64,000 nucleotides of DNA from contig NZ_CP022121.1 in the NCBI RefSeq assembly GCF_002224645.1, positions 620,001 through 684,000 on the forward strand. Direction: 5' to 3'. How positions within the stretch are numbered: the first letter of the stretch is position 1; every line of letters starts with the position of its first letter. Shown here one piece after another: positions 4,981 through 37,082 of this stretch. The notes under the pieces were generated by a model. It was not told where the DNA came from. It searched no databases and saw only the letters and a program-made list of their open reading frames with translations. The DNA is from Dehalobacterium formicoaceticum. Lineage in GTDB: Bacteria; Bacillota; Dehalobacteriia; Dehalobacteriales; Dehalobacteriaceae. The position numbers and the translations under genes are program-made.

Positions 4981-4985
4981 TCGCT

Positions 4986-6554: not shown

Positions 6555-6637
6555 AATGGACACTCCTTTCCATGTAGTCTGTATATTTCCATTATCACAT
6601 ATGTAAAAGAGAAATGGAAGACTGTCCCAATTACAGA

Positions 6638-6880: not shown

Positions 6881-6893
6881 TGTATCACCTCTA

Positions 6894-6999: not shown

Positions 7000-7042
7000 A
7001 TTAGGATTCTTCAACGTGAATAAAGCAAAAGGGGGTTTTAGT

Positions 7043-7240: not shown

Positions 7241-7252
7241 GTCAAGCAATCC

Positions 7253-7290
7253 AATAGCGCTTAGTTAGATATGAGGCGCTATTTTTATTT
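7253..7290 (+). terminator. Rho-independent terminator after the small Spo0E-like gene
   Basis: AATAGCGC pairs with GCGCTATT across a 15-nt loop and is followed by TTTATTT. It separates the small regulatory gene from the resumed transfer operon; the PrgI gene follows with its own GGAGGTGA site. Confidence 0.75.
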
Positions 7291-7305
7291 GGAGGTGATT
7301 GAGTT

Positions 7306-15936: not shown

Positions 15937-16176
15937 GATGTACTCATCGGGATCAAAAATTATTCATTATATTGAGTTTTAATCAATTCTACTAACTCCC
16001 TCTTTAATCTAACGTTTTCTCTTGATTACTTGTTTTTTCTTAGATTTTCACATTACTCAAAACATGCCATATGGATATCATGCTCATTTATGCATATACC
16101 TGGAAGGGCAAGGGCGACCTCAATAAGCTGAATGTTTTTTCGCTTTTTTCCGGCCGTTGGTATCCACTTGCTCTCC
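15937..16176. repeat. 240-bp direct repeat, copy 1 (left border of IS66 composite)
   Basis: Base-for-base identical, by eye, to 36,649-36,888 and in the same orientation. It is non-coding and AT-rich at the left, with a CGGCCG-containing segment at the right. It ends exactly where IS66 copy 1 begins. The second copy begins exactly where IS66 copy 2 ends, so this looks like a very long target duplication created when the block between them was inserted. The 130 bp further left hold no gene. Confidence 0.95.
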
Positions 16177-16259
16177 GTAATTGTCAAAAAATCTACACAT
16201 AGCAAACGCCTTTAGGAACTGAGATAATAACCTCAAGACTATTTGAGGAGGAATTATCT

Positions 16260-16565
16260 ATGACTCTTAAAGAGCAGTCCATGATTAGGCGCCAGCAAGT
16301 AAAAGATTATCTTGCTTCCGGCCAAGCTGCAGCCGCATGGTGCTTAGAAAACAATCTAAACATCACTACACTCCGATACTGGGTGACCAAGTGCAACCGC
16401 GAAGCCAATGCTGATCCCCAGCAAAAAACCTTTATCGAGTTGAAGCAAACATCGATAAAGGAAGTTCCGGTCATTGTTAAGATCGGGGCAGTTTCCATCG
16501 AGCTGTATTCAGGCTTTCAAGCAGAGACTCTGCGCGAAGCTATTGCTGCTATTTATTCCATATGA
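16260..16565 (+). CDS. tnpA: IS66 TnpA accessory protein (copy 1)
   Basis: A 101-residue protein with an N-terminal helix-turn-helix (REQ-type start, then ASGQAAAAWCLENNLNITTLRYW) typical of the IS66 OrfA/TnpA DNA-binding protein. It has GAGGAGGAATT upstream of its ATG. Its stop overlaps the tnpB start (ATGA-type, 4 bp), indicating coupling. The predicted product is identical to that of copy 2 at 36,260. Confidence 0.92.
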   Translation: MTLKEQSMIRRQQVKDYLASGQAAAAWCLENNLNITTLRYWVTKCNREANADPQQKTFIELKQTSIKEVPVIVKIGAVSIELYSGFQAETLREAIAAIYSI

Positions 16566-16918
16566 GCCTAAATACTGCTGGCCTTAGAATATTCCTTTCT
16601 TGCAAGCCCTGCGACATGCGAAAGAGTATCGAAGGTCTTGCTACATTGGTCCAGACGCAGTTACAGATGGACCCTTTTGAAAACTGCCTTTACGTGTTCT
16701 GTAACCGGGCCTGTGATAAATGTAAGATCCTTCATTGGTCGAATAACGGCTGGTGGTTATATTATCGCAAATTGAGTCGTGGCGTTTTCCGATGGAAGTT
16801 TTACGAAAACAAACAGGTCCTTGAGGTCTCTGAACGGCAGTTTAGGTGGCTTTTAGATGGTTTATCAATGGATCAGCCATCCGCACATAAGCCTGTTAAG
16901 CAGCGGATAATTCTTTAA
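16562..16918 (+). CDS. tnpB: IS66 TnpB protein (copy 1)
   Basis: A 118-residue protein with the family pattern LSCKPCDMRKSIEGLATLV, FVFCNRA-like YVFCNRACDKCKILHW, and YYRKLSRGVF. This IS66 OrfB is required for transposition in studied members, though its biochemistry is unresolved; it is unrelated to the RNA-guided TnpB of IS605. It overlaps tnpA by 4 bp and precedes tnpC by 108 bp. Confidence 0.95.
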   Translation: MSLNTAGLRIFLSCKPCDMRKSIEGLATLVQTQLQMDPFENCLYVFCNRACDKCKILHWSNNGWWLYYRKLSRGVFRWKFYENKQVLEVSERQFRWLLDGLSMDQPSAHKPVKQRIIL

Positions 16919-17026
16919 CCGGTTTTGCTAAAATAATTTAATGAAATTGCCGTATTTTCCCCTGTTTCAGGGCTTTTTACCGCTATTATCCTGTAATTTT
17001 ACGTTAGGTTCTTATATAATAAGGAT

Positions 17027-18658
17027 ATGAATAACGTGATAAAGTTACCTCAAAAACCACAACTGAATTACAGAGAAATGTCACAAGCAGACCTGGCTGC
17101 CCACTGCGAAAAGCAGGATAAGGCCATTGCCGAACTGACTCAAAACATGAATCGCCTCATTGAGATGATTCGTTTGAATAACCATAAGAAGTATGGTTCC
17201 AGCGGTGATTCTGTATCCTATCCCGAGGGAATGGAACAACTCTGCTTATTCAACGAAGTTGAAGTCACTGCTCAAAAAGGAGCGTCAGAACCAACTTTTG
17301 AAGAAGCAACGGCGAAGACCCCTAGAAAACCCAAACAAAAGGGTAAGCGTGAACAAGACTTCAAAGATTTGAAGGTCACCGTCATTGAACATGAGCTTCC
17401 GGCAGAACAGCAGGTTTGTCCAGTGTGTGACAGTCCCCTACACGATATGAAGGTTGAAATTACTAAGACACTGAAACTTGTACCGGCCCATTTCGAAGTT
17501 GAGGAACACCGCCGTCATGTCTATACCTGCCGTACGTGTGAAAAAAATCAAGGCGAAGGTGATAAGATCCCTTTTGTTCGTGCTGACATGCCCAACTTGC
17601 CGATTCCCGGAAGTTTTGCTACCCCGGAGTTGATCGCTGGCATCATCAATAGCAAATATACCAATGCAATGCCACTTTCCCGGATTGAGCGGGAGTTTGA
17701 CCGGATGGACAGCGTCAGGATCTCTAGGCAGAACATGAGCAATTGGGTACTCCAATGTTCGGAGGAATACTTTTCAAGGATCTATACCCATATGAGAAGT
17801 GTCCTTCTGAGCAAAGACATCTTGCACGCCGATGAAACTTGGACCCGTGTTGTGCAGCAGGATGGCAGGGACTCCAAGAAAAAATGCTATATCTGGGTTT
17901 ACTGCAGCGGGGCCCATGATGAGCCAATTATCTATTATGAATTCCATGAAAGCCGGGCTACGGAATCGGCCAAGGAATTTCTAAAGGACTACTCTGGTTT
18001 CTTGCACTCCGATGGCTACGAGGTTTACCATCGTTTGGGGCCGGGAATCACGGTTGTTGGATGTCTTGCCCATATAAAGCGTAAATTTACGGATGCTATT
18101 AAAGCATTAAGTCCGGAGGAGCAAAAGAAAACCGTTTGCTTCAAGGGACAGGAATATTGCGACTACTTGTTCCATATCGAAAAGAAATACAAGGATGCTA
18201 CCCCCGAGGAGCGTCATAACAAGCGCCTCACCCTGTTAAAACCGGTGATGGATGCCTTTTTGTCGTGGCTTAAAGAGACCAAGCCCCTCATTGTACCCAA
18301 ATCCCAAGCTTATGAGGCCGTAAATTATGCGCTGAACCAGTGGCCATACTTTGAGAATATCCTTTTAGATGGTCGCTTAGAGTTGACAAATAATTTGGTG
18401 GAGCGAAATATACGTCCGTTTACAATTGGCCGCAAAAATTGGGTCACCATGAAAACTGATCGGGGTGCACACGATAGCTCGATGGTTTACAGTATCATAC
18501 AAACTGCATTGGCCAATGACCTAAAAGTTTATGAATATCTGGTCTATTTATTGAAACAGATGCCGAATACAAATTTTAACCAATTTCCGGAACTGATTGA
18601 GAAGTTTGTTCCTTGGTCTAAAGAGCTTCCGGCTAACTGCTACAAAACTAAAAATTGA
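17027..18658 (+). CDS. tnpC: IS66 TnpC transposase (copy 1)
   Basis: A 543-residue DDE transposase. There is an N-terminal coiled/basic segment, a zinc-binding region with CPVCDSP and CRTCEKN near residues 130-175, then the catalytic core with Asp in LHADETW, Asp in LHSDGYEVYH and Glu in ELTNNLVERNIRP. Length and motifs are complete, so it should be active. A CCAACC/GGTTGG hairpin with a T-run at 18,671-18,692 terminates it. It is identical to the copy at 34,167. Confidence 0.97.
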   Translation: MNNVIKLPQKPQLNYREMSQADLAAHCEKQDKAIAELTQNMNRLIEMIRLNNHKKYGSSGDSVSYPEGMEQLCLFNEVEVTAQKGASEPTFEEATAKTPRKPKQKGKREQDFKDLKVTVIEHELPAEQQVCPVCDSPLHDMKVEITKTLKLVPAHFEVEEHRRHVYTCRTCEKNQGEGDKIPFVRADMPNLPIPGSFATPELIAGIINSKYTNAMPLSRIEREFDRMDSVRISRQNMSNWVLQCSEEYFSRIYTHMRSVLLSKDILHADETWTRVVQQDGRDSKKKCYIWVYCSGAHDEPIIYYEFHESRATESAKEFLKDYSGFLHSDGYEVYHRLGPGITVVGCLAHIKRKFTDAIKALSPEEQKKTVCFKGQEYCDYLFHIEKKYKDATPEERHNKRLTLLKPVMDAFLSWLKETKPLIVPKSQAYEAVNYALNQWPYFENILLDGRLELTNNLVERNIRPFTIGRKNWVTMKTDRGAHDSSMVYSIIQTALANDLKVYEYLVYLLKQMPNTNFNQFPELIEKFVPWSKELPANCYKTKN

Positions 18659-18670
18659 AAATTCCCACGT

Positions 18671-18694
18671 CCAACCTTTGGGTTGGGCTTTTTT
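18671..18694 (+). terminator. IS66 tnpC terminator (copy 1)
   Basis: CCAACC and GGTTGG form a 6-bp stem with a 4-nt loop, followed by GCTTTTTTG. The mirror image closes the second IS66 copy at 34,131-34,154. Confidence 0.75.
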
Positions 18695-18797
18695 GTTTAT
18701 TTTAAGTGCTTAGGATTTGACAATTACACCAAACTTAGGGTGCATTTTCTTTGTCAAGTAATAAAAATTATTGCGGTTTATTCATAATTTTTAACGG

Positions 18798-22208: not shown

Positions 22209-23402
22209 TCATTTTGTTTGTGCATAGAATAAATTATTAAACAGAAGAGGAGAAATAGTACATGTAATTATTGCGACTAAAATAATTGTGGCATTTAATG
22301 CACCACTGATGATTCCCATCTTATAACCAATCGTACCTACTGCAATGATAAGACTGAGTCTTGATGATGACAAAGTAGCTGCAGCTATCGATTTTTTCCA
22401 TGAATAGATAAATCGCAGAAAGATCGAAGGCATTAAGTTTACAAAATAGATAATTGCTAAAAATACGGGTAATAAATACATTGACTCAGGATTATTTATA
22501 ATATCTTTTACATTAAAATTTACCCCTACCATGATAAAAAACAGCGGAATAAAGAAACCATATCCAATCGCATCTAATTTTTGATATATTTGTGATGTAG
22601 CTCGGTCATTAATCAGGGAAACAATTAATCCTGCTAAGAAAGCTCCAAGAATCATTTCTGTTTTTAATAGCTGGGCAAGCGTCATGAACATAATTAATAA
22701 AGCAATAGTTCCTCTAACCTTTATCTGTGATGTTTTATGTGCCAGCTCTTCCATCATTGGATATTTCATTATTTTATTTCCTGCTTTATATACCAGAAAA
22801 AATGCTGGGATTAATAACAAAATTAATAGAATTTCAAAAACAGAACTGGAGCTAGTTAAGGTAACAAATAATGAAAGTAAAATCATGGTGGAGAAATCGG
22901 CTAATAATGCAGTTATCAATATTATTTGGCCGTATTCCTCATTTAATAAGCCTTTTTCTTTAAGGATTGGTACGACAATTCCAACAGAAGTACTACAGAA
23001 CACAATAACAAAAAGAGTAATATTGGGTATTAACCCATAAATTTTCAGTAAAAAAGCTATGATAAATGACAAGATGAATGAAGTTAAGAATAAAATACTT
23101 GCAACAAAAAATGGTTGCTGAGTTAATTGACCTTTTTTACTGGAGGGACCAATCAATTGAAGATTTATTTCTAATCCTGACATGAACATAAGAAAAGCAA
23201 AACCTAATTGAAATAGAAAATCTAACCAGACACTTTCAGATACCAAATTTAAACCACTTTTTCCTATTACTATTCCGGCGACTATTTCACCAACTACAAT
23301 AGGAATCGAAATAAACTTTATTCGATTAACAGCTGCAGGTATCACAGCTGCAACAAAAACTATTAATAATAAAGAAGAATAAGAGAATACTTCATTTGTC
23401 AT
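22209..23402 (-). CDS. Kef/CPA2-type cation:proton antiporter
   Basis: A 397-residue membrane protein with about 12 hydrophobic helices and no C-terminal RCK/TrkA domain. ATG 23402 is chosen because GAGGTAG lies just upstream. Typical CPA2 features are visible, for example GEIVAGIVIGKSGL in the N-terminal part and LLADFSTMILL in the middle, whose Asp is the likely ion-binding residue. It would exchange Na+ or K+ for H+, which fits export of acid formed when a halogenated or O-methyl substrate is consumed; that link is inferred. Flanking gaps (277 and about 100 bp) hold nothing clear. Confidence 0.85.
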   Translation of the reverse strand: MTNEVFSYSSLLLIVFVAAVIPAAVNRIKFISIPIVVGEIVAGIVIGKSGLNLVSESVWLDFLFQLGFAFLMFMSGLEINLQLIGPSSKKGQLTQQPFFVASILFLTSFILSFIIAFLLKIYGLIPNITLFVIVFCSTSVGIVVPILKEKGLLNEEYGQIILITALLADFSTMILLSLFVTLTSSSSVFEILLILLLIPAFFLVYKAGNKIMKYPMMEELAHKTSQIKVRGTIALLIMFMTLAQLLKTEMILGAFLAGLIVSLINDRATSQIYQKLDAIGYGFFIPLFFIMVGVNFNVKDIINNPESMYLLPVFLAIIYFVNLMPSIFLRFIYSWKKSIAAATLSSSRLSLIIAVGTIGYKMGIISGALNATIILVAIITCTISPLLFNNLFYAQTK

Positions 23403-23502
23403 ATATACTACCTCAATCATAAATTATTATAATAACAGGCATCCTTAAAAGACTTATAAAAATTCCACTTAAAAATATAGTAAAGAGGATAATCATGATC
23501 TT

Positions 23503-24375
23503 TTATTTCTGAATTAATTCTATCCCCCAAATGCAGGGCTGATCCATCTTCATTGGACCCCATGCTATACACCTGTGACCCACAACAATAGGTTCAGTTA
23601 ACTCATCCAGCAACCCGGCCAGTGCCTGGCCATAGGTGGAAGCTTTACCGGTGTCAATAGCATACGAGTGGACCATATCTGTGTTTTCAAGTGCTGCGGA
23701 GGTTCGGCCACAAAGATGGATCAGAAATCTCCCCCCAACTTCTTTTATCCCATTAATTATTCGCAGGTTTGATGGTCCGCTAAAATCCCGGTAAATAGTT
23801 GGTCCTATAACATCCGGTACACCTACCGCGTCCTCAAAGGAAATAATTGAGGCACCCCTTTTTACACCCTCAATACCATATTGAATAACACTCTTTTCAA
23901 TAACAGCCATGATTTCCTTGATTTGTGCTGGATCCTTACGCAAGCCACGGTAAAAGATTGTATGATTTATCAAGGCATAAATAATCGTGAATGGACCGAC
24001 AATGTTGAGTATTACTTTTTCACCCGACTCAGCCAGGATCCCGACAGCATCCAGTACTTCTCCAATTCGACCTTTAGAAATATCTGGCGCTTGGATACCG
24101 GATAGTTCTTCAATAGACGAGAAGCGGTGGCCATTTGGTCTTGGTCGATGCATAGCATCGCCCATTTTTATATATGCTCCGAAGGCTTCTGCTTCGACCG
24201 TGACACAAAAAGGCACCTTGGCAAACACATCGTCCTGGTATTTCTTTAGCACTCTGGCAAGAGCAACTATGTTATTTTTATCCGTGTAAGCCTCCGGGAA
24301 AGTTATCCCAGCTTCCCCTAAAACCTCTTCAGGAATATGATCTTGATTATGTCCAGGACATTTAAATTCCACCAT
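23503..24375 (-). CDS. Uroporphyrinogen decarboxylase-family methyltransferase (short, MtaA-like)
   Basis: A 290-residue protein with ATG 24375 after TTGGAGGG. It keeps the UroD/MtaA fold pattern and a zinc-type HLCGRT motif in the C-terminal third, plus HRCIAWGP near the end. It lacks roughly 40 residues at the N-terminus relative to the 337-residue paralogue at 27,865. Members of this group transfer methyl groups between corrinoid proteins and thiol or other acceptors. Of the three UroD proteins here it is the most distant from the corrinoid-protein gene. Confidence 0.8.
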   Translation of the reverse strand: MVEFKCPGHNQDHIPEEVLGEAGITFPEAYTDKNNIVALARVLKKYQDDVFAKVPFCVTVEAEAFGAYIKMGDAMHRPRPNGHRFSSIEELSGIQAPDISKGRIGEVLDAVGILAESGEKVILNIVGPFTIIYALINHTIFYRGLRKDPAQIKEIMAVIEKSVIQYGIEGVKRGASIISFEDAVGVPDVIGPTIYRDFSGPSNLRIINGIKEVGGRFLIHLCGRTSAALENTDMVHSYAIDTGKASTYGQALAGLLDELTEPIVVGHRCIAWGPMKMDQPCIWGIELIQK

Positions 24376-24493
24376 TCTTCCCTCCAATAAAGTAAACTAG
24401 TAATATTTACTTATAAAATTTATAATTACCATATATTACTATTATTAGCCCTCCTAAAACTAACTTGCGTTTTAGCCAGTCATTGATCTTAGT

Positions 24494-26320
24494 TCACATA
24501 AAAGCACAGGCATCTCGAAAAGCCCTTTGGAAATCCGGTCTGAGCGAAAGTTCAACATGAGTTGCCTTCCTTGCCAGGAGCTCTGCATAATGTCGCTCTT
24601 TTTCTGAAGTAAGCGCTAAAATGGCACCTTCTCCAGCGGCATTTCCTACTGAATATATAATTTTCTCATCTACTCTAGGAAACAGTCCTATTGATAGAAT
24701 GCTCTCTTTCCTGACAAAGCTGCCAAATGCACCTGCCAGCATTACTTTGCTTAAATCTTTTGCCTGAATACCAGCTTCCTTCAAAAGAATTTCAGCTCCA
24801 GCCCTGACAGCAGCCTTTGCCATCTGCAATTCACGCACATCCTGCTGGGTTAAAACGATATCAGCCGCATCAGTTGAGCCATAATGAAGGACGAAATCCT
24901 GCCCAGATCCATTGGGTCGTAATCGGCACCACAATTCTTCCGGGATTTTCCCTTCCAGTTCCTTTCGAGACAGCATCCGGCCGTTATTATTGATAATTCC
25001 TGCCTTTACCAGTTCTGAAACAGCGTCAATTAAACCGGATCCACAAATTCCACATGGTACAACATCTCCGATAACGTGAATAATCACAGTTTTGTCAATA
25101 CATACTTTTTCTATAGCTCCCTCTACCGCTCTCATCCCTTGATGAATATGAGCCCCTTCAAAAGCGGGCCCTGCAGCTGTAGAGCAGGTATACAGCCTTT
25201 CTTCGCAAGCCAGTGCTATCTCTCCGTTGGTACCCAGGTCAATCATCATTGCCGGTTCAGTATTTTTGTCTATGCCCACCGCTAACATAGCCGCCACAGT
25301 ATCAGAACCAACGTACCCTGCAATGTTTGGCAACACAATAACCTGAGCATGATGATTGATTTCTAATCTCAAAGTATCGGCAGAAACTACTGTCATTGAA
25401 GAGAATACGGGAATAAAAGGTGTTTTCCCCAGTGCTGTGGGGGACAAACCTAAAAATAAATGAGCCATGACTGTGTTTCCCACAACAGACGCCTGATAAA
25501 TGGTCTCAGTATCAATACCATTCTGCGATGCCAACTCGTTGATTATTTCATTTATGACACCTAAAACCTTTTCATGCAAACACTTCAACCCGTTTTCTTG
25601 TTCATTACAAAACTGGATGCGGGATATCACATCTGCCCCGTAAGAATTCTGCTTATTAGTACGGGAAGCGGCTCCTATCACTAGGCCTTGGCAAAGATCA
25701 AGCAAAAAACCTACAACGGTTGTTGTCCCAATATCAAATGCTACTCCGTAGATTTTGTTACGTGTATCCCCTGCTTCTACTGCTAATAATTCGTTTCCAG
25801 CTAGAATAGCGGTAACTTTAAAATCATTTTTCCTTAGGTTGAATGGTAAATGAGACAATATATCGAAACGTAAAGGGTTAATTTCTTTCTCCTTTAATCC
25901 ATCTAAGAGGCGTTTTTCATCCGACCTGAAATCATGGACATTTGGTTTTTCTAATTCCAGGTATTCTTTTCTTAAATCTGTGTCCAGAGATACCGTTTTC
26001 GTTTCTAATGTCAATTTTCGCGATAATCCATTTTCTTGTTTCGAAATAAGTACTTCTAGGTTGCCATAGCCCCGGCACTGACAAGCCAGGGCTATTCTCT
26101 TTTCTACATCCGATGAACTTAGGAAGTTTTTCTCCACTTTTGTTAATGGTTCTCTTTCCCCATGTTGAATACGCACCCTGCATTTACCACAAATCCCTCT
26201 GCCACCACACGGTGCTTCAATACCTATACCAGCTTTTTGCGAGGCCTCCAAAATAGTATTTTTTTCGCCCAAAATAATCGTCTTCTCTTCAGGATAAAAA
26301 GTTATATTTCTGTCAGACAT
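24494..26320 (-). CDS. Corrinoid activation protein (RACE type: 2Fe-2S plus ASKHA ATPase)
   Basis: A 608-residue protein. The N-terminal plant-type ferredoxin domain has Cys 38, 44, 47 and 80 in C-x5-C-x2-C spacing. A linker is followed by an ASKHA (DUF4445) domain with VAFDIGTTTVVGFLLDL near residue 190 and DLGTNGEIAL. The family reduces inactive Co(II) corrinoid back to Co(I) with ATP, restarting methyltransferase cycles. It overlaps the upstream DUF1638 gene by 8 bp. All cluster cysteines are intact. It is distinct from RamA, which uses 4Fe-4S clusters. Confidence 0.93.
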   Translation of the reverse strand: MSDRNITFYPEEKTIILGEKNTILEASQKAGIGIEAPCGGRGICGKCRVRIQHGEREPLTKVEKNFLSSSDVEKRIALACQCRGYGNLEVLISKQENGLSRKLTLETKTVSLDTDLRKEYLELEKPNVHDFRSDEKRLLDGLKEKEINPLRFDILSHLPFNLRKNDFKVTAILAGNELLAVEAGDTRNKIYGVAFDIGTTTVVGFLLDLCQGLVIGAASRTNKQNSYGADVISRIQFCNEQENGLKCLHEKVLGVINEIINELASQNGIDTETIYQASVVGNTVMAHLFLGLSPTALGKTPFIPVFSSMTVVSADTLRLEINHHAQVIVLPNIAGYVGSDTVAAMLAVGIDKNTEPAMMIDLGTNGEIALACEERLYTCSTAAGPAFEGAHIHQGMRAVEGAIEKVCIDKTVIIHVIGDVVPCGICGSGLIDAVSELVKAGIINNNGRMLSRKELEGKIPEELWCRLRPNGSGQDFVLHYGSTDAADIVLTQQDVRELQMAKAAVRAGAEILLKEAGIQAKDLSKVMLAGAFGSFVRKESILSIGLFPRVDEKIIYSVGNAAGEGAILALTSEKERHYAELLARKATHVELSLRPDFQRAFRDACAFM

Positions 26321-26936
26321 TGCTTTCCTCCATGCTCTTCGGAAACTGCTTAATTTCTTTTAAAGTTTGCCTAATGAGTGTTTCAAAATTTTTGCTGCCA
26401 ATCCTTTGAATTTCCAGGGGTAGGTTAAGAAAGTCAGCTATTTCGCGAGCTTTCTTGTCAAGGGAGTTATCTTCCATGACATCCAAGTATACAACTCGTT
26501 GATAATTCCGAAGCATCATTTCTTTAATCCTAGGCCGCTCTTTCCAATCCAAAGGCTCTACAACCAGCTTGTTAAAATTCCTGCATATGTCGTCTGTCAA
26601 AAAATAGGTTCCCGGCACTTTTTTAAGCATTTCCCGGTAGATGTCTTCACCGACATACATCGCATAACATAATTCGCCTGGAACCCTGATTGCCCCATGT
26701 TGATTAACTATTTCATCAATTCTGTAAGCACATTTGCCGTAAACAACAATTATTCCACTGTATATGCCTTTAAAGGAAGCGAGCAGTCCATTAATAGCAG
26801 CTGACAACTTGTCTGGATAAAGGTGCATAATCGCAGGCAGGTAAATAATGTCCGGCCGCTCATCTTCGTGCAATGCTTCGATAGCTTTTTCTAATGGAAT
26901 TTTCAAAGTTCCGCAGGCGACAATTACGTTAGACAT
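26313..26936 (-). CDS. DUF1638 protein, second of two
   Basis: A 207-residue protein, distantly similar to the one at 21,323: VIVACGTLKIPLEKAIEAL, YLPAIMHLYPDKL and a middle YGKCAYRIDEI keep the Cys and His pattern of DUF1638. It lies between the MtrH-type gene (15 bp) and the RACE gene (8-bp overlap), inside the core of the operon. The tight coupling to the activator suggests a direct role in corrinoid handling; the activity is unknown. Confidence 0.82.
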   Translation of the reverse strand: MSNVIVACGTLKIPLEKAIEALHEDERPDIIYLPAIMHLYPDKLSAAINGLLASFKGIYSGIIVVYGKCAYRIDEIVNQHGAIRVPGELCYAMYVGEDIYREMLKKVPGTYFLTDDICRNFNKLVVEPLDWKERPRIKEMMLRNYQRVVYLDVMEDNSLDKKAREIADFLNLPLEIQRIGSKNFETLIRQTLKEIKQFPKSMEESNV

Positions 26937-26951: not shown

Positions 26952-27851
26952 TCACTTAAATACATGGTACAAAGGATGATCATGGCTGGCAGGCCTTACG
27001 CCATGCTGCATACAGCTATATGCAACCAAAGCATCAACTGCCGCCATGGACGGCACTATTTCCGTTTGTTTGATTCCATACATAATAAAGTCGGCACCCA
27101 AAAGCTGCAGGCTGGTCGCCATACTGGTTTTAGTGGAAGCTACTTCAATCTTGTTATACATAGAAGCTTTCTTCCACCCGGTAATCACCGTATGGGTTGG
27201 TGAACAGCCGGCAGGATATCCATATTTGTCTTTGAGCATATATATTGCTTTAGCTGCCGGTCCCGGCTCCACTATGTCCAGTACGGCCATGTCAAGCATC
27301 AGTTTTTCAAAACCATAGGACTTAGCCCGTTCAATCAGTGCTTCTGCAATATCTACTCTGCCCTGAGCTGTTGGCTTCTTTGAATTGTTCAACATAACTA
27401 CGGTAGCTTTTAAACCATGCTTTTTTACTTCTTTCAGTTCCTCATCTTTACTCTCAACATTTACGGAATCAAACACTGCCCTGTCCTGTAAACCAAGCTT
27501 GGCAGCCATTTCCACCCCGGCAATTCTCACCTTGGCAACCGTCCCATCAATGATGAACGGCAGAACTGTGTTACGTCCGATGAATTCAACATAGGCTCGC
27601 ATAGCATTTTCGCTGGCTCCGACAATATCTATCATCAGAGGGAGTTTAACTTTTTTGCACATATCATCAATTTTGTTAATCCAGCCAAGGGCTCCTTCTT
27701 GATCAAAAGTTCCCTTTTCTTCATCTTTAACAAGCTTGTCACCCTGATAAAAGATGCTTGCCATTAATACTGTCGGATGCTGTCCAGGTTGGCCGCCGAT
27801 TGTAACATTTCCAATTTGATAAATTTTCTGTTCAGCTTTGAATTTGAACAA
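26952..27851 (-). CDS. MtrH-family methyltransferase (methylcobamide:tetrahydrofolate type)
   Basis: A 299-residue TIM-barrel protein. TTG 27851 is chosen because AGGGGGGGACGA sits just before it and it starts 13 bp after the previous stop. The sequence matches the MtrH family: GNVTIGGQPGQHPTVLMASIFY, then PLMIDIVGAS, FIIDGTVAKVR and GYPAGCSPTHTV. MtrH and its bacterial relative MtgA transfer a methyl group between methyl-corrinoid and a pterin. Here it probably feeds tetrahydrofolate and the Wood-Ljungdahl pathway (inference). Confidence 0.9.
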   Translation of the reverse strand: MFKFKAEQKIYQIGNVTIGGQPGQHPTVLMASIFYQGDKLVKDEEKGTFDQEGALGWINKIDDMCKKVKLPLMIDIVGASENAMRAYVEFIGRNTVLPFIIDGTVAKVRIAGVEMAAKLGLQDRAVFDSVNVESKDEELKEVKKHGLKATVVMLNNSKKPTAQGRVDIAEALIERAKSYGFEKLMLDMAVLDIVEPGPAAKAIYMLKDKYGYPAGCSPTHTVITGWKKASMYNKIEVASTKTSMATSLQLLGADFIMYGIKQTEIVPSMAAVDALVAYSCMQHGVRPASHDHPLYHVFK

Positions 27852-27864
27852 ATCGTCCCCCCCT

Positions 27865-28878
27865 TTACTCGTACCGCCCAAATTTTTCTGCAGCTCTAAC
27901 CATGGCCTCTACATTTTCCGGCGGTACATCAGCGGTAATTTCACAACCCGGTGACAGCATGTACTGTCCGCCTTCCTTGGCGGCAGTGATGATCTCTCCG
28001 CATTTTTCCTCTACTTCCTCTGCGGAAGCCTGGGGCAAAAAGACAATATGGTCTAGGTTTCCGGCAAAACCAAGCTTTCCGGCATATTTCTTTTTAAATT
28101 TGAGCATGTCTGTGTGGTGTCCTAAACTGACCATCTGCAGTTTTTCCATGTCAGCCAGAACATCCCCGTTTAGATCAAGATGAGTATCTACTTTCCCGCA
28201 CATGTGCAAAATGTTATATTCGTAGGTGAGCGCCTGCCTTAAATATGGGATGTAAAATTCGGTCATCGTTGCTGGCGCGAACATCTGCAGGTCGTGTTCA
28301 CATATCACTAGGAAAGATGCCCCCGCTTCCTTTAATGCTTGAGCATAAGCGTTCACTACTTCTGTGCTTTTCTGGATCAGGGCATGCATAAATTCTTTTT
28401 TTCGGACACTCTTGATGAAATTCTCATAGGGAAATAGCTGCATTGAGAAGGTAAACGGCCCGGTTACATACGCACCTACCGGAACGTCTGTACTTTCCGC
28501 CAGGATCCTCGTCCCCTCTACAGTCACTTTTGAACCAGGAGCTTTAGCAAAATCCGGCATCTTAAAATTTTTAATATCTTCTTCTGTTAAAATAGGATTC
28601 TTCGTGATCCACGGGTATTTGTCAGGGGGATAAAAAAGTGTTCCGCCGCACGCTTCAACTACCGGCCAACTTGGTTCCACCTGGATCGCCACCGAATCAT
28701 ACTTGTACCGATTTAATGCCTTTAGGTGCGCCTCAGCTGCTCTCCTCGCATCCTTGTACATTACATCAAAAGTTAAACCCTGACTAACTCCTGCATGATC
28801 TCCAACCTGGGCAAGTACAGGTACCCGATCAGGTATCTTTCCGTCTAAAGTAGCAAAAACTCTCTCTCTCGAATTCAT
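27865..28878 (-). CDS. Uroporphyrinogen decarboxylase-family methyltransferase (MtaA-like)
   Basis: A 337-residue protein of normal MtaA/UroD length, starting ATG after GAGGTGAC. It begins NSRERVFATLDGKIPDRVPV, with zinc-type ILHMCGK in the C-terminal half and the closing LSPGCEITADVPPENV. The His-x-Cys plus distal Cys matches the zinc ligands of MtaA, which moves a methyl group from the corrinoid protein to a thiol. In an acetogen-type host the acceptor need not be coenzyme M. It is 12 bp from the response-regulator gene. Confidence 0.88.
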   Translation of the reverse strand: MNSRERVFATLDGKIPDRVPVLAQVGDHAGVSQGLTFDVMYKDARRAAEAHLKALNRYKYDSVAIQVEPSWPVVEACGGTLFYPPDKYPWITKNPILTEEDIKNFKMPDFAKAPGSKVTVEGTRILAESTDVPVGAYVTGPFTFSMQLFPYENFIKSVRKKEFMHALIQKSTEVVNAYAQALKEAGASFLVICEHDLQMFAPATMTEFYIPYLRQALTYEYNILHMCGKVDTHLDLNGDVLADMEKLQMVSLGHHTDMLKFKKKYAGKLGFAGNLDHIVFLPQASAEEVEEKCGEIITAAKEGGQYMLSPGCEITADVPPENVEAMVRAAEKFGRYE

Positions 28879-28890: not shown

Positions 28891-29706
28891 TCACAGTTTA
28901 TTTAGTAGATCTTTCCAGTCGTCTTCTTTCCCTTCTTGGATGTGATAACTGGAAGGAGTGGTCCCAACCTTTTGACTGAACACCTTGCTGAAATAATCGG
29001 GATCCTGAAATCCGGTTTCACGGGCAATGGTCTTGATGGGAAGATTTGTATTCTCCAAAAGGACTTTAGCCCGTTCAATCCGAGATTGGATTACATATTC
29101 TTTAAATGTCATGCTCTCTTCTTTACTGAACAAAGTACTGAAATAGCTCATACTAAATCCCACATGGTCGGCTACTTCTTTCAATGTCAGCTGTTTTCTA
29201 AGGTTTTGCCGAACATATGACTTGGCTGAGTTAATGACGCGTTTAGTTGAGTCTAAAGGGTTCCATGAATTAATGTCTTCAGAAGTATTTTCTTCATCTT
29301 TCTCAGATATCAAATTTTGAGGATCTACCATTTTCCAAAAAGCATTGACAATTTCTCGCCGGTGTACCGGTTTCAGGAGATAATCTTTAGCTTGCAGATT
29401 TAAGGCCATGCGCAGCATAGGATAATCACCATAGGCTGATATGAATGTGAACTTTACCTCTGGATAATGCAACTTGATCTGTCCCGCTACATCCAATCCG
29501 TTTTTCCCTGGCATCCGTACATCTAAAAACGCCACTGAAATATCCTGCCGGCTCAATATTTCCATTGTTTCATTACCATCTTGCGCCTGGAAAACCTGAA
29601 TATGGTAATTCTTGTCGCATCTTGCGTTACTGGTAATAGTTTCAATAATTACAGCCCGCTCCAATGATTCATCATCCGCAACCAATAATCGGATTGTCTC
29701 TGCCAT
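28891..29706 (-). CDS. AraC-type response regulator
   Basis: A 271-residue protein with ATG 29706 after GGGAGGG. The receiver domain (about 1-120) has acidic residues at the start and phospho-acceptor Asp 62 in FLDVRMPG. The C-terminal two-helix-turn-helix AraC domain includes SYFSTLFSKEESMTFKEYV and DYFSKVFSQKVGTTPSSY. It is placed between two UroD genes, inside the operon it presumably controls. Its partner is most likely the PocR histidine kinase at 31,908. Confidence 0.93.
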   Translation of the reverse strand: MAETIRLLVADDESLERAVIIETITSNARCDKNYHIQVFQAQDGNETMEILSRQDISVAFLDVRMPGKNGLDVAGQIKLHYPEVKFTFISAYGDYPMLRMALNLQAKDYLLKPVHRREIVNAFWKMVDPQNLISEKDEENTSEDINSWNPLDSTKRVINSAKSYVRQNLRKQLTLKEVADHVGFSMSYFSTLFSKEESMTFKEYVIQSRIERAKVLLENTNLPIKTIARETGFQDPDYFSKVFSQKVGTTPSSYHIQEGKEDDWKDLLNKL

Positions 29707-29755
29707 AGTAGACCCTCCCTTACAGAAAACTAGACATTCCAGCATATAGGACTAT

Positions 29756-30916
29756 TTAATCCAATTTATTCAGATTGATGGGGAAAGTCCCATATTTATT
29801 TAAAGCATCAATAAACGCACGGACATTTTCCACAGGTGACCCTTGGGGAATCGCGCAAGGCTCAATCATACAACCTCCATTACATGGATACAGCCCCTTG
29901 ATATATTCCTTGACTCGATTTTCAATTATTTCCGGCGTCCCTTCTTTAATCAACTCTGTATGGACTCCCACGGCATAAGCCTTATGAAAAGTATTGGCCA
30001 GCTCGCGAAAAGTCTTCAGATCCCTGCTGGGTCCTTGCTGAGGATCAGGGTCAAGATTTGTCATGACAAATGTTCCTGTTGAAACCTGGCGGGCCAAAAA
30101 CCTTGTCCAATCATCACCAAGATGGCTCAAGCCCCAATAATAGTGAATGAAAGGCAGCGGACTGGCACTTTGAATCATTCTGGCCAGATACGGTGTGTCG
30201 AATTCCCAAAGCTGCTCCGGCCTAAAGTTGGGCACGCTGTTCCAAGCTGCAATAGGTGTAATCCCATGAATCCCGGTTTCTTTAAAAGCCTGAGCAAACT
30301 TTATGGCTGCCTGGGTACATGCCTCAACCACTCTGTGCATTAAAAGAGGCTTTGTTTTCATCCATTTAACGGCCAGAGGGTATCCCAAGATTTGTACGGC
30401 CACCGGGAGAGGCTGCATCGGCGTGGCAATTACTGCATACTCACCTTTTGTCTTTTTCACCAGCTGTTTAAACAGTTCCAGTCTGACCGGCATACGCCCT
30501 TCGGTACGTCCGTCCAAAGCTGCCACTTTTTCTTCCAGTTCTTCAACATCACGTTCACAGGTTATTGCTTCTTTAACAATTTGAGGGTTTGAATCTTTGG
30601 GTCTCTTTAAAGTACACCCTAGGATTTCAGCCTCGACAACGGTCGTTTCAATCCCTGGAAATACTACGTCATAGTCGAATTCTTCAAAAAATTTCACTAT
30701 CGCATCCGAATGCTTTTCGGGATCTGCGGCCGCTTCACTGCAGGAGTAACCATACCGATTGACAATCCATTCTGTAAACAAAAAGCCTGTAGGGATCCTG
30801 TCGGCATGTTCCTGGCACACCGTCAGAACAATCCTCTCAATAGGCAGCAGTCTTTCACCTCTGTCCCTTTTGGCAATGATGTTTTTTACCATTTCCATTT
30901 GCTCTTTACTTGACAT
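29756..30916 (-). CDS. Uroporphyrinogen decarboxylase-like methyltransferase lacking the HxC zinc motif
   Basis: A 386-residue protein starting ATG after GGAGGTG. The overall UroD-type barrel is retained, ending IPQGSPVENVRAFIDALNKYG. At the position of the usual His-x-Cys-Gly the sequence reads FIHYYWGL, so the zinc site of MtaA-type enzymes is absent, while the C-terminus has CNGGCMIEPC. It is encoded 5 bp downstream of the corrinoid protein. By position it is the best candidate for the substrate-facing methyltransferase (MT I) that loads the corrinoid. That is inference. Confidence 0.85.
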   Translation of the reverse strand: MSSKEQMEMVKNIIAKRDRGERLLPIERIVLTVCQEHADRIPTGFLFTEWIVNRYGYSCSEAAADPEKHSDAIVKFFEEFDYDVVFPGIETTVVEAEILGCTLKRPKDSNPQIVKEAITCERDVEELEEKVAALDGRTEGRMPVRLELFKQLVKKTKGEYAVIATPMQPLPVAVQILGYPLAVKWMKTKPLLMHRVVEACTQAAIKFAQAFKETGIHGITPIAAWNSVPNFRPEQLWEFDTPYLARMIQSASPLPFIHYYWGLSHLGDDWTRFLARQVSTGTFVMTNLDPDPQQGPSRDLKTFRELANTFHKAYAVGVHTELIKEGTPEIIENRVKEYIKGLYPCNGGCMIEPCAIPQGSPVENVRAFIDALNKYGTFPINLNKLD

Positions 30917-30921
30917 TTTTA

Positions 30922-31566
30922 TTATTCACCTCCGAGCAATCTTCTGGCTTCCTGTACAGCTCCTTCTGCGTCCTCGGCAAATCCGTCGCCACCGATCCGT
31001 TTCACATATTGAGGAAATACAGCTACTCCTCCCAACAGCACCTTCACTTTGTCCCGTAGAGATTCTTTGACCAGAAGGTCTATTGTGTCTTCAATCCCTT
31101 TTAGGGTGGTGGACATGTAAGAACCAATGCCTAAAATCTCCGGTTGTTCCTTTTTTACCGCTTCAATAAACACATCAGCTGAAACATCTACTCCCAAGTC
31201 GATTACCTCAAAACCATCTGCCCTTAATAGCGCAGCAACAACGTTCTTACCGATGTCATGGACATCTCCTTCAACACTACCAATTACAACTTTTCCGATA
31301 GATTTAGGGGAAGCATCACCTGTCATATAAGGAATGAGTGACTGTACACCGGCATTCATTGCCTCACCAGCCATCATCAGCTCTGGCAGAAAATATTCTC
31401 CTGTTCCGAATTTCCGGCCTGCTTCTCTAGCCCCCGGTGACATCCCGTTGATCATTTCTGTTGGAGTTAATCCTGCTTCAATCCCTTGACTCACCAACTC
31501 TTTGGTTAGATCATCATTACCGTTCAAAACTGCTTCAGTCAATTGCTCTAAAATTTTTTTGCTCAT
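30922..31566 (-). CDS. Corrinoid (B12-binding) protein, MtaC/MtbC type
   Basis: A 214-residue protein of standard length. The N-terminal helical cap domain (about 1-85) is followed by a B12-binding Rossmann domain with DVHDIG at residues 101-106, whose His 103 is the lower cobalt ligand, and a GG pair near 169. It shuttles the C1 group between the substrate-specific methyltransferase and the acceptor methyltransferase. It is the first gene of the structural operon, behind a 341-bp leader, with AAAGGAGT before its ATG. Confidence 0.95.
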   Translation of the reverse strand: MSKKILEQLTEAVLNGNDDLTKELVSQGIEAGLTPTEMINGMSPGAREAGRKFGTGEYFLPELMMAGEAMNAGVQSLIPYMTGDASPKSIGKVVIGSVEGDVHDIGKNVVAALLRADGFEVIDLGVDVSADVFIEAVKKEQPEILGIGSYMSTTLKGIEDTIDLLVKESLRDKVKVLLGGVAVFPQYVKRIGGDGFAEDAEGAVQEARRLLGGE

Positions 31567-31907: not shown

Positions 31908-33203
31908 CTAATTACTTGTAAACAGCGGCATAATTAATGTGGCCTTAGTCCCTTCGATATCCGGGGGTCCCTGCAATTGTAATCCGTATGCGTCGCCAAA
32001 CAGTCGTCTCATTCTTTGATGAATATTTTCCAGGCTGGAGCCTGGGCAATGGCACCAGTGGTCACCATCAGTCACACGCTGTGTATCAATACCTGCTCCA
32101 TCATCTATTACATAAACTAACAAACGATTTCCCGGGATATCCTCATCAACCTTTATCAATAAGCGGTGTTTTCCTGGGACCGATTCGAACCCATGTTTAA
32201 ACGCATTGTCTACCAGTGGTTGTAAAGTAAAAGGAAGAATTTTTACGCTTAGATGTTCTTCTTCTACTAGAATTTTCACGCTAATCCGGTTTCCGAACCT
32301 TAACCGTTGGATACTAAGGTAAGAATTAATGTGATCCAATTCCGTTTTTAAAAAGACCATTTCGATATTTCCCTCAATACCATAGCGGGCCACATCTGCT
32401 AAAGCAAAAACAGCTCCCTCAGTCTCAACCGCTCCTTCAGCAAACGCCAATCGGGCAATTACATTTAGTGCGTTAAAGAGAAAGTGTGGGTTCATTTTGG
32501 CCTGGAGTTCCCTTAGTTCCGCCTGTTTTAGCATCAACTGGTACTCAGTAATTTCTTTTTCCAGATTGACTGTTTTTTGAATTTCTTGAAGCAGACGGTC
32601 TTGATAGGACACCAATTCTTGTTGATAACGGGAAAGACTTTCTGAGACTGTAAGATAATTAGCCAAGGTGGATATTAATGTTGCAACGGCTGTAAACTGA
32701 TCGCCGGAAATTTTGGGAATAGTGTTCAGATGTTTGAAATAATCCCCACATGGTCCATTTGTCCCTTCAGTCAAAGATTCCGCTTCCATAAGCTGAACCG
32801 GGCTGGTAATCAAACATCCTAAAAGAACATTATCTCGGGCATATAGAGGAGCCGAAATAAGTGTGAGGCCACACTTTCCCTGATAAACCTTTGAACGGTC
32901 ATTATGATAACTGTTTTTTAAACCTGTTTCAAAGCAGTACAAACATTGAAAAAAGTGCTTTCTGTCTGAAAAGTGGCTCTGGCACCAATTTGGAAAGGAC
33001 CCTAATGGGGGAGATATGGGAACCGCTCTGTTATCAACAAAGACAATGTTAATCCCTATGACATTAAAAAACATTTTGCTGATCTCCAGCATTGTCTCCC
33101 GAGAAATAATCTCAGCTAAGTGATATGTCCTGTCAATAATGGTACTTATTTTATTTAAAGCTTTATCATTGCTTTGCACCACTACCATCCCCTCATCAAT
33201 CAT
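31908..33203 (-). CDS. PocR-domain sensor histidine kinase (LytS/YesM type)
   Basis: A 431-residue soluble protein. Residues about 28-180 form a PocR-type ligand-binding domain with Cys 74, 87, 90, 111 and 130, which may hold a metal or a corrinoid-related ligand. A coiled coil (about 190-230) leads into a His_kinase domain with phospho-acceptor His 240 in MNPHFLFNA, then an ATPase domain with PLVDNAFKHGF and VIDDGAGI. No membrane helix is present, so it senses a cytoplasmic signal. It is separated from the operon by its own 341-bp gap. A GTTAA-4nt-TTAAC palindrome lies upstream (33,241-33,254). Confidence 0.9.
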   Translation of the reverse strand: MIDEGMVVVQSNDKALNKISTIIDRTYHLAEIISRETMLEISKMFFNVIGINIVFVDNRAVPISPPLGSFPNWCQSHFSDRKHFFQCLYCFETGLKNSYHNDRSKVYQGKCGLTLISAPLYARDNVLLGCLITSPVQLMEAESLTEGTNGPCGDYFKHLNTIPKISGDQFTAVATLISTLANYLTVSESLSRYQQELVSYQDRLLQEIQKTVNLEKEITEYQLMLKQAELRELQAKMNPHFLFNALNVIARLAFAEGAVETEGAVFALADVARYGIEGNIEMVFLKTELDHINSYLSIQRLRFGNRISVKILVEEEHLSVKILPFTLQPLVDNAFKHGFESVPGKHRLLIKVDEDIPGNRLLVYVIDDGAGIDTQRVTDGDHWCHCPGSSLENIHQRMRRLFGDAYGLQLQGPPDIEGTKATLIMPLFTSN

Positions 33204-34075: not shown

Positions 34076-34166
34076 TTAAAGTATAACCTCCTATTACGTA
34101 ATTGTCAAATCCTAAGCACTTAAAATAAACAAAAAAGCCCAACCCAAAGGTTGGACGTGGGAATTT

Positions 34167-35798
34167 TCAATTTTTAGTTTTGTAGCAGTTAGCCGGAAGC
34201 TCTTTAGACCAAGGAACAAACTTCTCAATCAGTTCCGGAAATTGGTTAAAATTTGTATTCGGCATCTGTTTCAATAAATAGACCAGATATTCATAAACTT
34301 TTAGGTCATTGGCCAATGCAGTTTGTATGATACTGTAAACCATCGAGCTATCGTGTGCACCCCGATCAGTTTTCATGGTGACCCAATTTTTGCGGCCAAT
34401 TGTAAACGGACGTATATTTCGCTCCACCAAATTATTTGTCAACTCTAAGCGACCATCTAAAAGGATATTCTCAAAGTATGGCCACTGGTTCAGCGCATAA
34501 TTTACGGCCTCATAAGCTTGGGATTTGGGTACAATGAGGGGCTTGGTCTCTTTAAGCCACGACAAAAAGGCATCCATCACCGGTTTTAACAGGGTGAGGC
34601 GCTTGTTATGACGCTCCTCGGGGGTAGCATCCTTGTATTTCTTTTCGATATGGAACAAGTAGTCGCAATATTCCTGTCCCTTGAAGCAAACGGTTTTCTT
34701 TTGCTCCTCCGGACTTAATGCTTTAATAGCATCCGTAAATTTACGCTTTATATGGGCAAGACATCCAACAACCGTGATTCCCGGCCCCAAACGATGGTAA
34801 ACCTCGTAGCCATCGGAGTGCAAGAAACCAGAGTAGTCCTTTAGAAATTCCTTGGCCGATTCCGTAGCCCGGCTTTCATGGAATTCATAATAGATAATTG
34901 GCTCATCATGGGCCCCGCTGCAGTAAACCCAGATATAGCATTTTTTCTTGGAGTCCCTGCCATCCTGCTGCACAACACGGGTCCAAGTTTCATCGGCGTG
35001 CAAGATGTCTTTGCTCAGAAGGACACTTCTCATATGGGTATAGATCCTTGAAAAGTATTCCTCCGAACATTGGAGTACCCAATTGCTCATGTTCTGCCTA
35101 GAGATCCTGACGCTGTCCATCCGGTCAAACTCCCGCTCAATCCGGGAAAGTGGCATTGCATTGGTATATTTGCTATTGATGATGCCAGCGATCAACTCCG
35201 GGGTAGCAAAACTTCCGGGAATCGGCAAGTTGGGCATGTCAGCACGAACAAAAGGGATCTTATCACCTTCGCCTTGATTTTTTTCACACGTACGGCAGGT
35301 ATAGACATGACGGCGGTGTTCCTCAACTTCGAAATGGGCCGGTACAAGTTTCAGTGTCTTAGTAATTTCAACCTTCATATCGTGTAGGGGACTGTCACAC
35401 ACTGGACAAACCTGCTGTTCTGCCGGAAGCTCATGTTCAATGACGGTGACCTTCAAATCTTTGAAGTCTTGTTCACGCTTACCCTTTTGTTTGGGTTTTC
35501 TAGGGGTCTTCGCCGTTGCTTCTTCAAAAGTTGGTTCTGACGCTCCTTTTTGAGCAGTGACTTCAACTTCGTTGAATAAGCAGAGTTGTTCCATTCCCTC
35601 GGGATAGGATACAGAATCACCGCTGGAACCATACTTCTTATGGTTATTCAAACGAATCATCTCAATGAGGCGATTCATGTTTTGAGTCAGTTCGGCAATG
35701 GCCTTATCCTGCTTTTCGCAGTGGGCAGCCAGGTCTGCTTGTGACATTTCTCTGTAATTCAGTTGTGGTTTTTGAGGTAACTTTATCACGTTATTCAT
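34167..35798 (-). CDS. tnpC: IS66 TnpC transposase (copy 2)
   Basis: A 543-residue DDE transposase identical in prediction to the copy at 17,027, with the same zinc-binding and LHADETW / LHSDGYEVYH / ELTNNLVERN catalytic segments. Two intact identical transposases facing each other at the borders would be able to mobilise the whole block. The identity also indicates a recent arrival or ongoing gene conversion. The shared terminator lies at 34,131-34,154. Confidence 0.97.
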   Translation of the reverse strand: MNNVIKLPQKPQLNYREMSQADLAAHCEKQDKAIAELTQNMNRLIEMIRLNNHKKYGSSGDSVSYPEGMEQLCLFNEVEVTAQKGASEPTFEEATAKTPRKPKQKGKREQDFKDLKVTVIEHELPAEQQVCPVCDSPLHDMKVEITKTLKLVPAHFEVEEHRRHVYTCRTCEKNQGEGDKIPFVRADMPNLPIPGSFATPELIAGIINSKYTNAMPLSRIEREFDRMDSVRISRQNMSNWVLQCSEEYFSRIYTHMRSVLLSKDILHADETWTRVVQQDGRDSKKKCYIWVYCSGAHDEPIIYYEFHESRATESAKEFLKDYSGFLHSDGYEVYHRLGPGITVVGCLAHIKRKFTDAIKALSPEEQKKTVCFKGQEYCDYLFHIEKKYKDATPEERHNKRLTLLKPVMDAFLSWLKETKPLIVPKSQAYEAVNYALNQWPYFENILLDGRLELTNNLVERNIRPFTIGRKNWVTMKTDRGAHDSSMVYSIIQTALANDLKVYEYLVYLLKQMPNTNFNQFPELIEKFVPWSKELPANCYKTKN

Positions 35799-35906
35799 AT
35801 CCTTATTATATAAGAACCTAACGTAAAATTACAGGATAATAGCGGTAAAAAGCCCTGAAACAGGGGAAAATACGGCAATTTCATTAAATTATTTTAGCAA
35901 AACCGG

Positions 35907-36263
35907 TTAAAGAATTATCCGCTGCTTAACAGGCTTATGTGCGGATGGCTGATCCATTGATAAACCATCTAAAAGCCACCTAAACTGCCGTTCAGAGACC
36001 TCAAGGACCTGTTTGTTTTCGTAAAACTTCCATCGGAAAACGCCACGACTCAATTTGCGATAATATAACCACCAGCCGTTATTCGACCAATGAAGGATCT
36101 TACATTTATCACAGGCCCGGTTACAGAACACGTAAAGGCAGTTTTCAAAAGGGTCCATCTGTAACTGCGTCTGGACCAATGTAGCAAGACCTTCGATACT
36201 CTTTCGCATGTCGCAGGGCTTGCAAGAAAGGAATATTCTAAGGCCAGCAGTATTTAGGCTCAT
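35907..36263 (-). CDS. tnpB: IS66 TnpB protein (copy 2)
   Basis: 118 residues, identical to the copy-1 product, with the LSCKPCDMRKSIEGLATLV opening and the Cys-rich middle. It overlaps tnpA by 4 bp as in copy 1 and is separated from tnpC by the same 108-bp spacer. No change in either copy suggests inactivation. Confidence 0.95.
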   Translation of the reverse strand: MSLNTAGLRIFLSCKPCDMRKSIEGLATLVQTQLQMDPFENCLYVFCNRACDKCKILHWSNNGWWLYYRKLSRGVFRWKFYENKQVLEVSERQFRWLLDGLSMDQPSAHKPVKQRIIL

Positions 36264-36565
36264 ATGGAATAAATAGCAGCAATAGCTTCGCGCAGAGTCT
36301 CTGCTTGAAAGCCTGAATACAGCTCGATGGAAACTGCCCCGATCTTAACAATGACCGGAACTTCCTTTATCGATGTTTGCTTCAACTCGATAAAGGTTTT
36401 TTGCTGGGGATCAGCATTGGCTTCGCGGTTGCACTTGGTCACCCAGTATCGGAGTGTAGTGATGTTTAGATTGTTTTCTAAGCACCATGCGGCTGCAGCT
36501 TGGCCGGAAGCAAGATAATCTTTTACTTGCTGGCGCCTAATCATGGACTGCTCTTTAAGAGTCAT
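36260..36565 (-). CDS. tnpA: IS66 TnpA accessory protein (copy 2)
   Basis: 101 residues, identical to copy 1, with its helix-turn-helix region intact. The upstream 83 bp to the IS end carry the ribosome site GAGGAGG and presumably the transposase promoter, both oriented into the element. Confidence 0.92.
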   Translation of the reverse strand: MTLKEQSMIRRQQVKDYLASGQAAAAWCLENNLNITTLRYWVTKCNREANADPQQKTFIELKQTSIKEVPVIVKIGAVSIELYSGFQAETLREAIAAIYSI

Positions 36566-36648
36566 AGATAATTCCTCCTCAAATAGTCTTGAGGTTATTA
36601 TCTCAGTTCCTAAAGGCGTTTGCTATGTGTAGATTTTTTGACAATTAC

Positions 36649-36888
36649 GATGTACTCATCGGGATCAAAAATTATTCATTATATTGAGTTTTAATCAATT
36701 CTACTAACTCCCTCTTTAATCTAACGTTTTCTCTTGATTACTTGTTTTTTCTTAGATTTTCACATTACTCAAAACATGCCATATGGATATCATGCTCATT
36801 TATGCATATACCTGGAAGGGCAAGGGCGACCTCAATAAGCTGAATGTTTTTTCGCTTTTTTCCGGCCGTTGGTATCCACTTGCTCTCC
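36649..36888. repeat. 240-bp direct repeat, copy 2 (right border of IS66 composite)
   Basis: Identical to 15,937-16,176 in the same orientation. It begins at the first base after IS66 copy 2 and ends where the GGTGGCGACCC subterminal sequence of the IS110 element begins. The pre-insertion order was therefore left accessory genes, this 240-bp segment once, then IS110. Confidence 0.95.
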
Positions 36889-37082
36889 GGTGGCGACCCT
36901 CCCATGTCTCACAGGGTCTGTGCCCTAAATTCCTTCGTTCTGCCTATCCATGAGGTGGATGTTAGTCATGCTCCTATTACTGGATCTATGCCCTTATGGA
37001 ATTTATTCAACCTAACTAATCCCGGCTCGTTTTGTCAATGTGCTACCTTTAAAAATACGTGGCTTTCTCCTCTTGCTTAGGG
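36889..37082 (-). ncRNA. Candidate bridge RNA in the IS110 3' non-coding end
   Basis: A gene-free 194-bp stretch 3' of the recombinase with several paired segments on the minus strand, for example CATCCACCTCATGGATAG and GGGCACAGACCCTGTGAGAC, which fold locally. IS1111-group elements encode their target-choosing bridge RNA in this end. The call is by position and foldability only; no consensus could be checked. Confidence 0.5.

Follow-up and report, generated by a model that had tools for sequence, protein, structure and literature searches.

What does a UroD-type protein do when its gene lies beside that of a corrinoid protein but its zinc site is no longer complete? The locus considered here raises this question in a window of 64,000 nt, the whole stretch of DNA analysed, from Dehalobacterium formicoaceticum. 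At stake is which of two enzymes, MecE or MecC, cleaves the first C–Cl bond of dichloromethane (DCM), a widespread groundwater pollutant. The first-pass annotation had described the product of 29756–30916 as a UroD-type protein, encoded 5 bp from a corrinoid gene and carrying FIHYYWGL and a C-terminal CNGGCMIEPC, and in all of these particulars it was right: the open reading frame, on the minus strand, encodes a UroD family protein of 386 aa with FIHYYWGL at residues 256–263 and CNGGCMIEPC at residues 345–354.

The frame can be placed by its neighbours. By the Pfam profiles of the ORFs, the gene order is A-B-C-D-E-F-G-H-I-J, that of the published DCM cassette mecA–mecJ, which runs here from 33203 to 22209, with every gene on the minus strand: mecA (31908–33203), a sensor histidine kinase with a PocR domain (PF06580, PF10114); mecB (30922–31566), a corrinoid protein (PF02310 and PF02607); mecC (29756–30916), a UroD-type corrinoid methyltransferase recognized by its ORF, PF01208 and orthologues; mecD (28891–29745), a response regulator with an AraC-type HTH (PF00072, PF12833); mecE (27865–28878), a second UroD-type methyltransferase, recognized by profile and alignments; mecF (26952–27881), an MtrH-type methyltransferase on the folate side (PF02007); mecG (26313–26936), a DUF1638 protein (PF07796); mecH (24494–26320), a corrinoid-protein reductive activator of the RACo type (PF14574, PF17651, PF17650 and Fer2); mecI (23503–24387), a short UroD-type protein; and mecJ (22209–23420), a Na+/H+ exchanger-type transporter (PF00999). 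The gene thus lies between mecB and mecD, with a gap of 5 bp (30917–30921) on the mecB side. Because the match to the published cassette holds gene for gene, the frame is almost certainly mecC of D. formicoaceticum strain DMC, an already known gene. In the published accounts the cassette comprises genes of anaerobic DCM metabolism and is strongly induced by DCM (PMC9768040, PMC10344839), which bears out the earlier idea that this corrinoid methyltransferase system dehalogenates. Specifically, MecC is induced on DCM with an LFC of 5.21, together with MecE (PMC9768040), and ranks as the third most abundant protein, yet MecE stands about 25 times above it in the same source (PMC10344839). These accounts put MecE first and offer no explanation of MecC (PMC9768040; also Murdoch 2022 as cited in PMC10344839).

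Profile and fold both show MecC to be a UroD-fold corrinoid methyltransferase partner. It scores 103.8 bits against PF01208 (UroD; gathering cut-off 23.9), and 100.7 bits against NCBIfam TIGR01463 (MtaA/CmuA), below the curated cut-off of 235.4, as does MecE with 113.7. The closest solved sequence is MtaA, a methylcobalamin:CoM methyltransferase (4ay7; phmmer against the PDB, E = 1.2e-7), and at E ≤ 0.01 MtaA is the only match, in a database that contains CdmB (9rui). An AlphaFold2 model built from a six-row alignment (pLDDT 64.2, pTM 0.68) matches uroporphyrinogen decarboxylases with Z up to 29.6 (Foldseek, VIA-align) and MtaA with Z 26.8 and rmsd 3.4 over 319 aligned residues; CdmB is absent from the fold-match lists, whose library ends in April 2026. 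A second model (pLDDT 46.4) was not used. Residues 348–354 have a pLDDT below 50, with no confident strand there, so that the model gives no reading of the metal site, whether intact or re-built.

The zinc site was followed through alignments, from which the ligand positions in MecC are derived. Enzymes of the MtaA type hold zinc by the His and the Cys of an H-x-C motif plus one more, C-terminal Cys as the third ligand, a triad of the TIGR01463 type that is complete in MtaA (H-I-C...C) and incomplete in MecC, where the middle Cys is missing and the other two are present. In the phmmer alignment, His258-Tyr-Tyr-Trp261 (30134–30145, minus strand) pairs with the H-I-C-G of MtaA 4ay7, equivalent to the H-x-C-G of the homologues, and these four residues, His258 included, are identical in all five MecC orthologue copies. 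The column of the middle Cys holds Tyr in that alignment and Leu or Gly in the profile alignment. No Cys occurs in MecC between residues 200 and 345, so that re-alignment cannot supply the H-x-C cysteine, and this way of restoring the site is ruled out. The loss goes beyond chance, for elsewhere in the family the motif is usual: 22 of 25 non-orthologous homologues carry H-x-C-G (a count that omits L011, L012 and L028, each with a stop within the frame), and in an alignment of 13 rows that includes MecC the His and the third Cys are invariant (13/13), while conservation of the middle Cys reaches at least 90%. His265 (in SHLG), which falls near the ligand columns in one profile alignment, was also considered as a ligand and rejected, as in the four remaining orthologue copies position 265 is Leu and position 264 is Arg or His.

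The claim that MecC lacks the H-x-C zinc site is therefore correct for the cysteine and goes too far for the remainder, since His258 and Cys354 are retained; the alignments show that the MtaA/CmuA-type site has lost exactly one of its three ligands. The same qualification applies to the cluster CNGGCMIEPC (29855–29884, minus strand), which had been put forward as new. Cys345 and Cys349 are indeed specific to MecC, but Cys354 is the ordinary third zinc ligand: the MecC stretch PCAIPQGSPVENV aligns with GCGIAPMTPLENV of MtaA 4ay7 (phmmer). The spacing CX3CX4C occurs anywhere in only one of 134 homologues, and that one has Ala in the third-ligand column; a CX3CX4C ending at the third ligand is found in none of the 134. 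The peculiarity of MecC is real but narrower than proposed, with one ligand lost, two kept and two cysteines added in all four complete copies. In the passages of the mec-cassette papers that were searched we found no statement on the ligands of MecC, and we do not claim that the feature is unreported.

The copies of the gene also allow us to ask whether the cluster is maintained. Among the four full-length copies, all three cluster Cys codons show silent TGT/TGC changes, residue 352 inside the cluster differs in character (E, A, N, N), and one copy lacks Cys34. This pattern points to selection on the cluster, weakly so because the orthologues are 92–96% identical overall.

These orthologues form a tight group. 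Candidatus Formimonas warabiya DCMF (NZ_CP017634.1), a known DCM fermenter, has a 92% identical copy, which is a frame of 386 aa, occupies the same position after mecB with the 5-bp gap kept, and shares with D. formicoaceticum both H-Y-Y-W and CNGGCM[IV]xPC. Another genome carries the gene twice, both times complete, at 96% and 94% identity. Close orthologues were found only in genomes with adjacent mec genes (the neighbours being annotated except at L032 and L033). Intermediate homologues were found neither among 398 genomes of the phylum nor among 73 of one order, the best match after the orthologues being 28% identical, and PMC10344839 gives an identity ceiling outside the cassette of 40.4%. 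Scans of IMG/VR returned no relatives, and a profile from the near-identical MecC copies had no match in 20 genomes of one order, an uninformative result. Two observations concern individual copies. The DCMF protein is given as 343 aa in PMC9768040, against an open frame of 386 aa with a conserved N-terminus (L031, 9001–10161). A copy in genome G206 (L002, 1456–2535), 94% identical over residues 1–345, is truncated exactly before Cys345 and hence before the cluster, with 15 foreign residues at its end and a LysR-type gene adjoining; the locus is a broken cassette, in agreement with the partial cassettes reported in Dehalobacter (PMC9768040).

Both paralogues had been said to keep the zinc ligands, and this holds for MecE alone. 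MecE, about 25% identical to MecC and matched to MtaA 4ay7 by phmmer with E = 1.7e-15, belongs to the same family but has the full triad, H225, C227 and C312 (H-M-C plus the third Cys). MecI, in contrast, has H-L-C but stops before strand 8 and thus before the third ligand, in D. formicoaceticum and in DCMF alike.

Would the loss of a ligand mark an enzyme that loads the substrate onto the corrinoid? Two other systems help here. CmuA of Methylorubrum extorquens CM4 (plasmid pCMU01), the proven loader of chloromethane, is, like MecC, a UroD-type halomethane methyltransferase, with about 20% identity to it; unlike MecC, it is fused to its own corrinoid domain and has an intact triad, H-T-C with the third Cys. 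Dehalogenation of chloromethane cannot proceed without the cmuA gene (PMC3621897). CdmB of Acetobacterium dehalogenans (PDB 9rui), also UroD-type, loads haloalkanes free of zinc and with no effect of EDTA, in a cavity of mainly aromatic residues (PMC13222342). The incomplete triad is common to CdmB and MecC, but the CdmB alignment contains none of the three ligands whereas MecC keeps the His and the third Cys. Because CmuA keeps the triad and zinc-free CdmB lacks it, loading is, by analogy with these two proteins, compatible with either ligand state.

A census of homologues leads to the same point. From 111 loci of other genomes we collected 172 distinct UroD ORFs, of which 134 span both ligand columns and 38 were dropped. 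The loci were chosen among the matches listed in 61 genomes, omitting HemE-like top scorers and the lowest scorers, and from searches of the 398 genomes of the phylum and the 73 of the order; within the O-demethylase-like group the profile alignment should be taken as approximate. A corrinoid neighbour was defined as a match to a four-sequence profile (E 1e-5) on the same strand with a gap of −60 to 150 bp. The middle-column Cys is present in 94 of the 134; of the 40 others, 35 carry Asp, Glu or His, which are potential metal ligands, and five do not. Corrinoid neighbours accompany 5 of the 40 Cys-less and 11 of the 94 Cys-bearing homologues (Fisher p = 1.0), or 5 of 40 and 15 of 94 when fused proteins are counted (p = 0.79). 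We therefore reject cysteine loss as a marker of corrinoid-adjacent UroD genes, and, given also the intact site of CmuA, the step from a missing H-x-C beside a corrinoid gene to a substrate-loading enzyme does not hold as a rule. Individual cases do occur: a gene on a Thiodictyon plasmid has H-T-A in place of H-x-C, with a corrinoid gene 12 bp ahead of it and an ASKHA-domain gene behind it, and L003, which matches MecC best among the non-orthologous sequences, lacks the ligands and follows a corrinoid gene. The Thiodictyon operon (L046, 3332–6665), with its corrinoid protein, H-T-A UroD protein and ASKHA-domain protein, is in its own right an uncharacterised methyltransferase system.

What MecC does can be approached by subtracting the chloromethane system from the DCM system. 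MecE, which resembles the N-terminal half of CmuA, aligns with CmuA at E = 3e-17, against 7e-8 for MecC; CmuB matches MecF (29%, E = 2.9e-43); and MecB would do the work of the corrinoid half of CmuA. CmuC, which is needed for chloromethane growth and described as of unknown function in PMC4197683, resembles MecI in being UroD-related, of the same size class, and in having H-x-C without the third Cys; by blastp, however, the two show no convincing similarity (E about 1). Regulators, activators and the transporter aside, removing these counterparts from the Mec proteins leaves MecC, which speaks for loading by MecE and a DCM-specific role for MecC. Specifically, MecE, CmuA-like and with an intact triad, would transfer the carbon of DCM to the Co(I) of MecB, just as CmuA loads chloromethane, after which MecC would act on the chloromethyl or methyl group held by MecB, before or along with its transfer to folate by MecF, as the part of the pathway specific to DCM. 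Because its H-x-C site is broken, MecC would not be expected to activate a thiol acceptor in the manner of MtaA, and any metal that it held would use His258, Cys354 and possibly Cys345 or Cys349. The ligand pattern thus predicts that MecE needs zinc at H225, C227 and C312, and that MecC is independent of an H-x-C site. Taken whole, the statement that this is mecC, that its zinc site is broken and that it performs a DCM-specific step on the MecB-bound carbon is one that we regard as nearly evenly balanced between right and wrong, leaning slightly to the latter; the step assigned within it, with MecE loading and MecC acting on the MecB-bound C1 group, is offered tentatively and with a little less assurance. 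Two points speak against it from the cassette itself: it is mecC and not mecE that adjoins mecB, and the likeness of MecI to CmuC consists of size class and ligand pattern alone.

Published biochemistry bears on this as well. The abstract of Soder-Walz 2024 reportedly gives a similar assignment of steps, with MecE removing the carbon from DCM, MecC re-methylating a product, MecB as the shuttle and all three needed for complete turnover, and reportedly calls both MecE and MecC zinc-dependent. It is also reported to locate MecC, on native gels, in the slice with the highest activity. The zinc dependence so reported fits badly with a broken site in MecC, and the native-gel result fits a loader, so both count against the preferred reading. 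If the zinc dependence was measured, the zinc of MecC would sit in a different site; if it was based on homology, the sequence of MecC contradicts it.

A close rival is that MecC is itself the loader, holding DCM in an aromatic, metal-free cavity and presenting it to the Co(I) of MecB in the way of CdmB, while MecE and MecF carry out later transfers. This is possible, though we think it clearly less than probable. A zinc-free loader is conceivable because CdmB, with its whole triad missing, is one, and MecC has Tyr-Tyr-Trp where the homologues have x-C-G; its gene lies next to mecB, the Thiodictyon gene and L003 have likewise lost the cysteine beside a corrinoid gene, and PMC13222342 classes MecC alongside MecE among the haloalkane-dehalogenating methyltransferases (MTI). 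However, the family-wide link between cysteine loss and a corrinoid neighbour is absent among the 134 homologues, CmuA loads with an intact triad, and MecC differs from CdmB in retaining two of the three ligands and finds MtaA rather than CdmB in the PDB search.

Compatible with either role is the proposal that MecC works as an ordinary zinc-type methyltransferase, its zinc held in a re-built site by His258, Cys354 and Cys345 and/or Cys349. The retention of His258 and Cys354, the extra cysteines 5 and 9 residues from Cys354, the Cys codons that vary silently while residue 352 changes kind and Cys34 is once lost, and the zinc dependence reported by Soder-Walz 2024 all speak for it. If strand 8 is like that of the homologues, on the other hand, Cys349 would stand at its start and Cys354 at its end, probably too distant for one metal, and the conservation counts for little among copies so nearly identical. 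We therefore consider it unlikely; any zinc in MecC would have to occupy a new site, and H258, C345, C349 and C354 are the residues that discriminate between the models of MecC.

It is more doubtful still that MecC is a scaffold or a chaperone of the corrinoid protein that, like an inactive paralogue, has no transfer chemistry of its own. The partial active site would suit such a role, and PMC10344839 leaves its function unexplained, but the protein is abundant (if far behind MecE) and strongly DCM-induced (PMC10344839, PMC9768040). The reported requirement for MecB, MecC and MecE in complete turnover does not separate scaffolding from catalysis. Finally, that the cysteine cluster serves to move the chloromethyl group from Co(III) in MecB to a protein thiolate, as an S-chloromethyl that loses the second chloride before folate, would, if true, make MecC the piece that separates DCM from chloromethane metabolism, but we know of no description of such thiol chemistry for corrinoid methyltransferases and regard it as very improbable.

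The surroundings of the cassette were also noted. It is flanked by an insertion element of 2,552 bp, present as two identical copies in opposite orientation at 16176–18727 and 34098–36649 of the window, 15,370 bp apart; from reading their ORFs alone they appear IS66-like, and the arrangement resembles a composite transposon. At the outer ends of the elements lies an identical direct repeat of 239–241 bp (15937–16177 and 36649–36889), which occurs twice in the genome and far exceeds the length expected of an insertion-site duplication. Conjugation-type genes lie nearby (2879–10000), with a coupling protein-like ORF at 2879–4645 and a VirB4-like ORF at 7664–10000, as judged from reading their translations.
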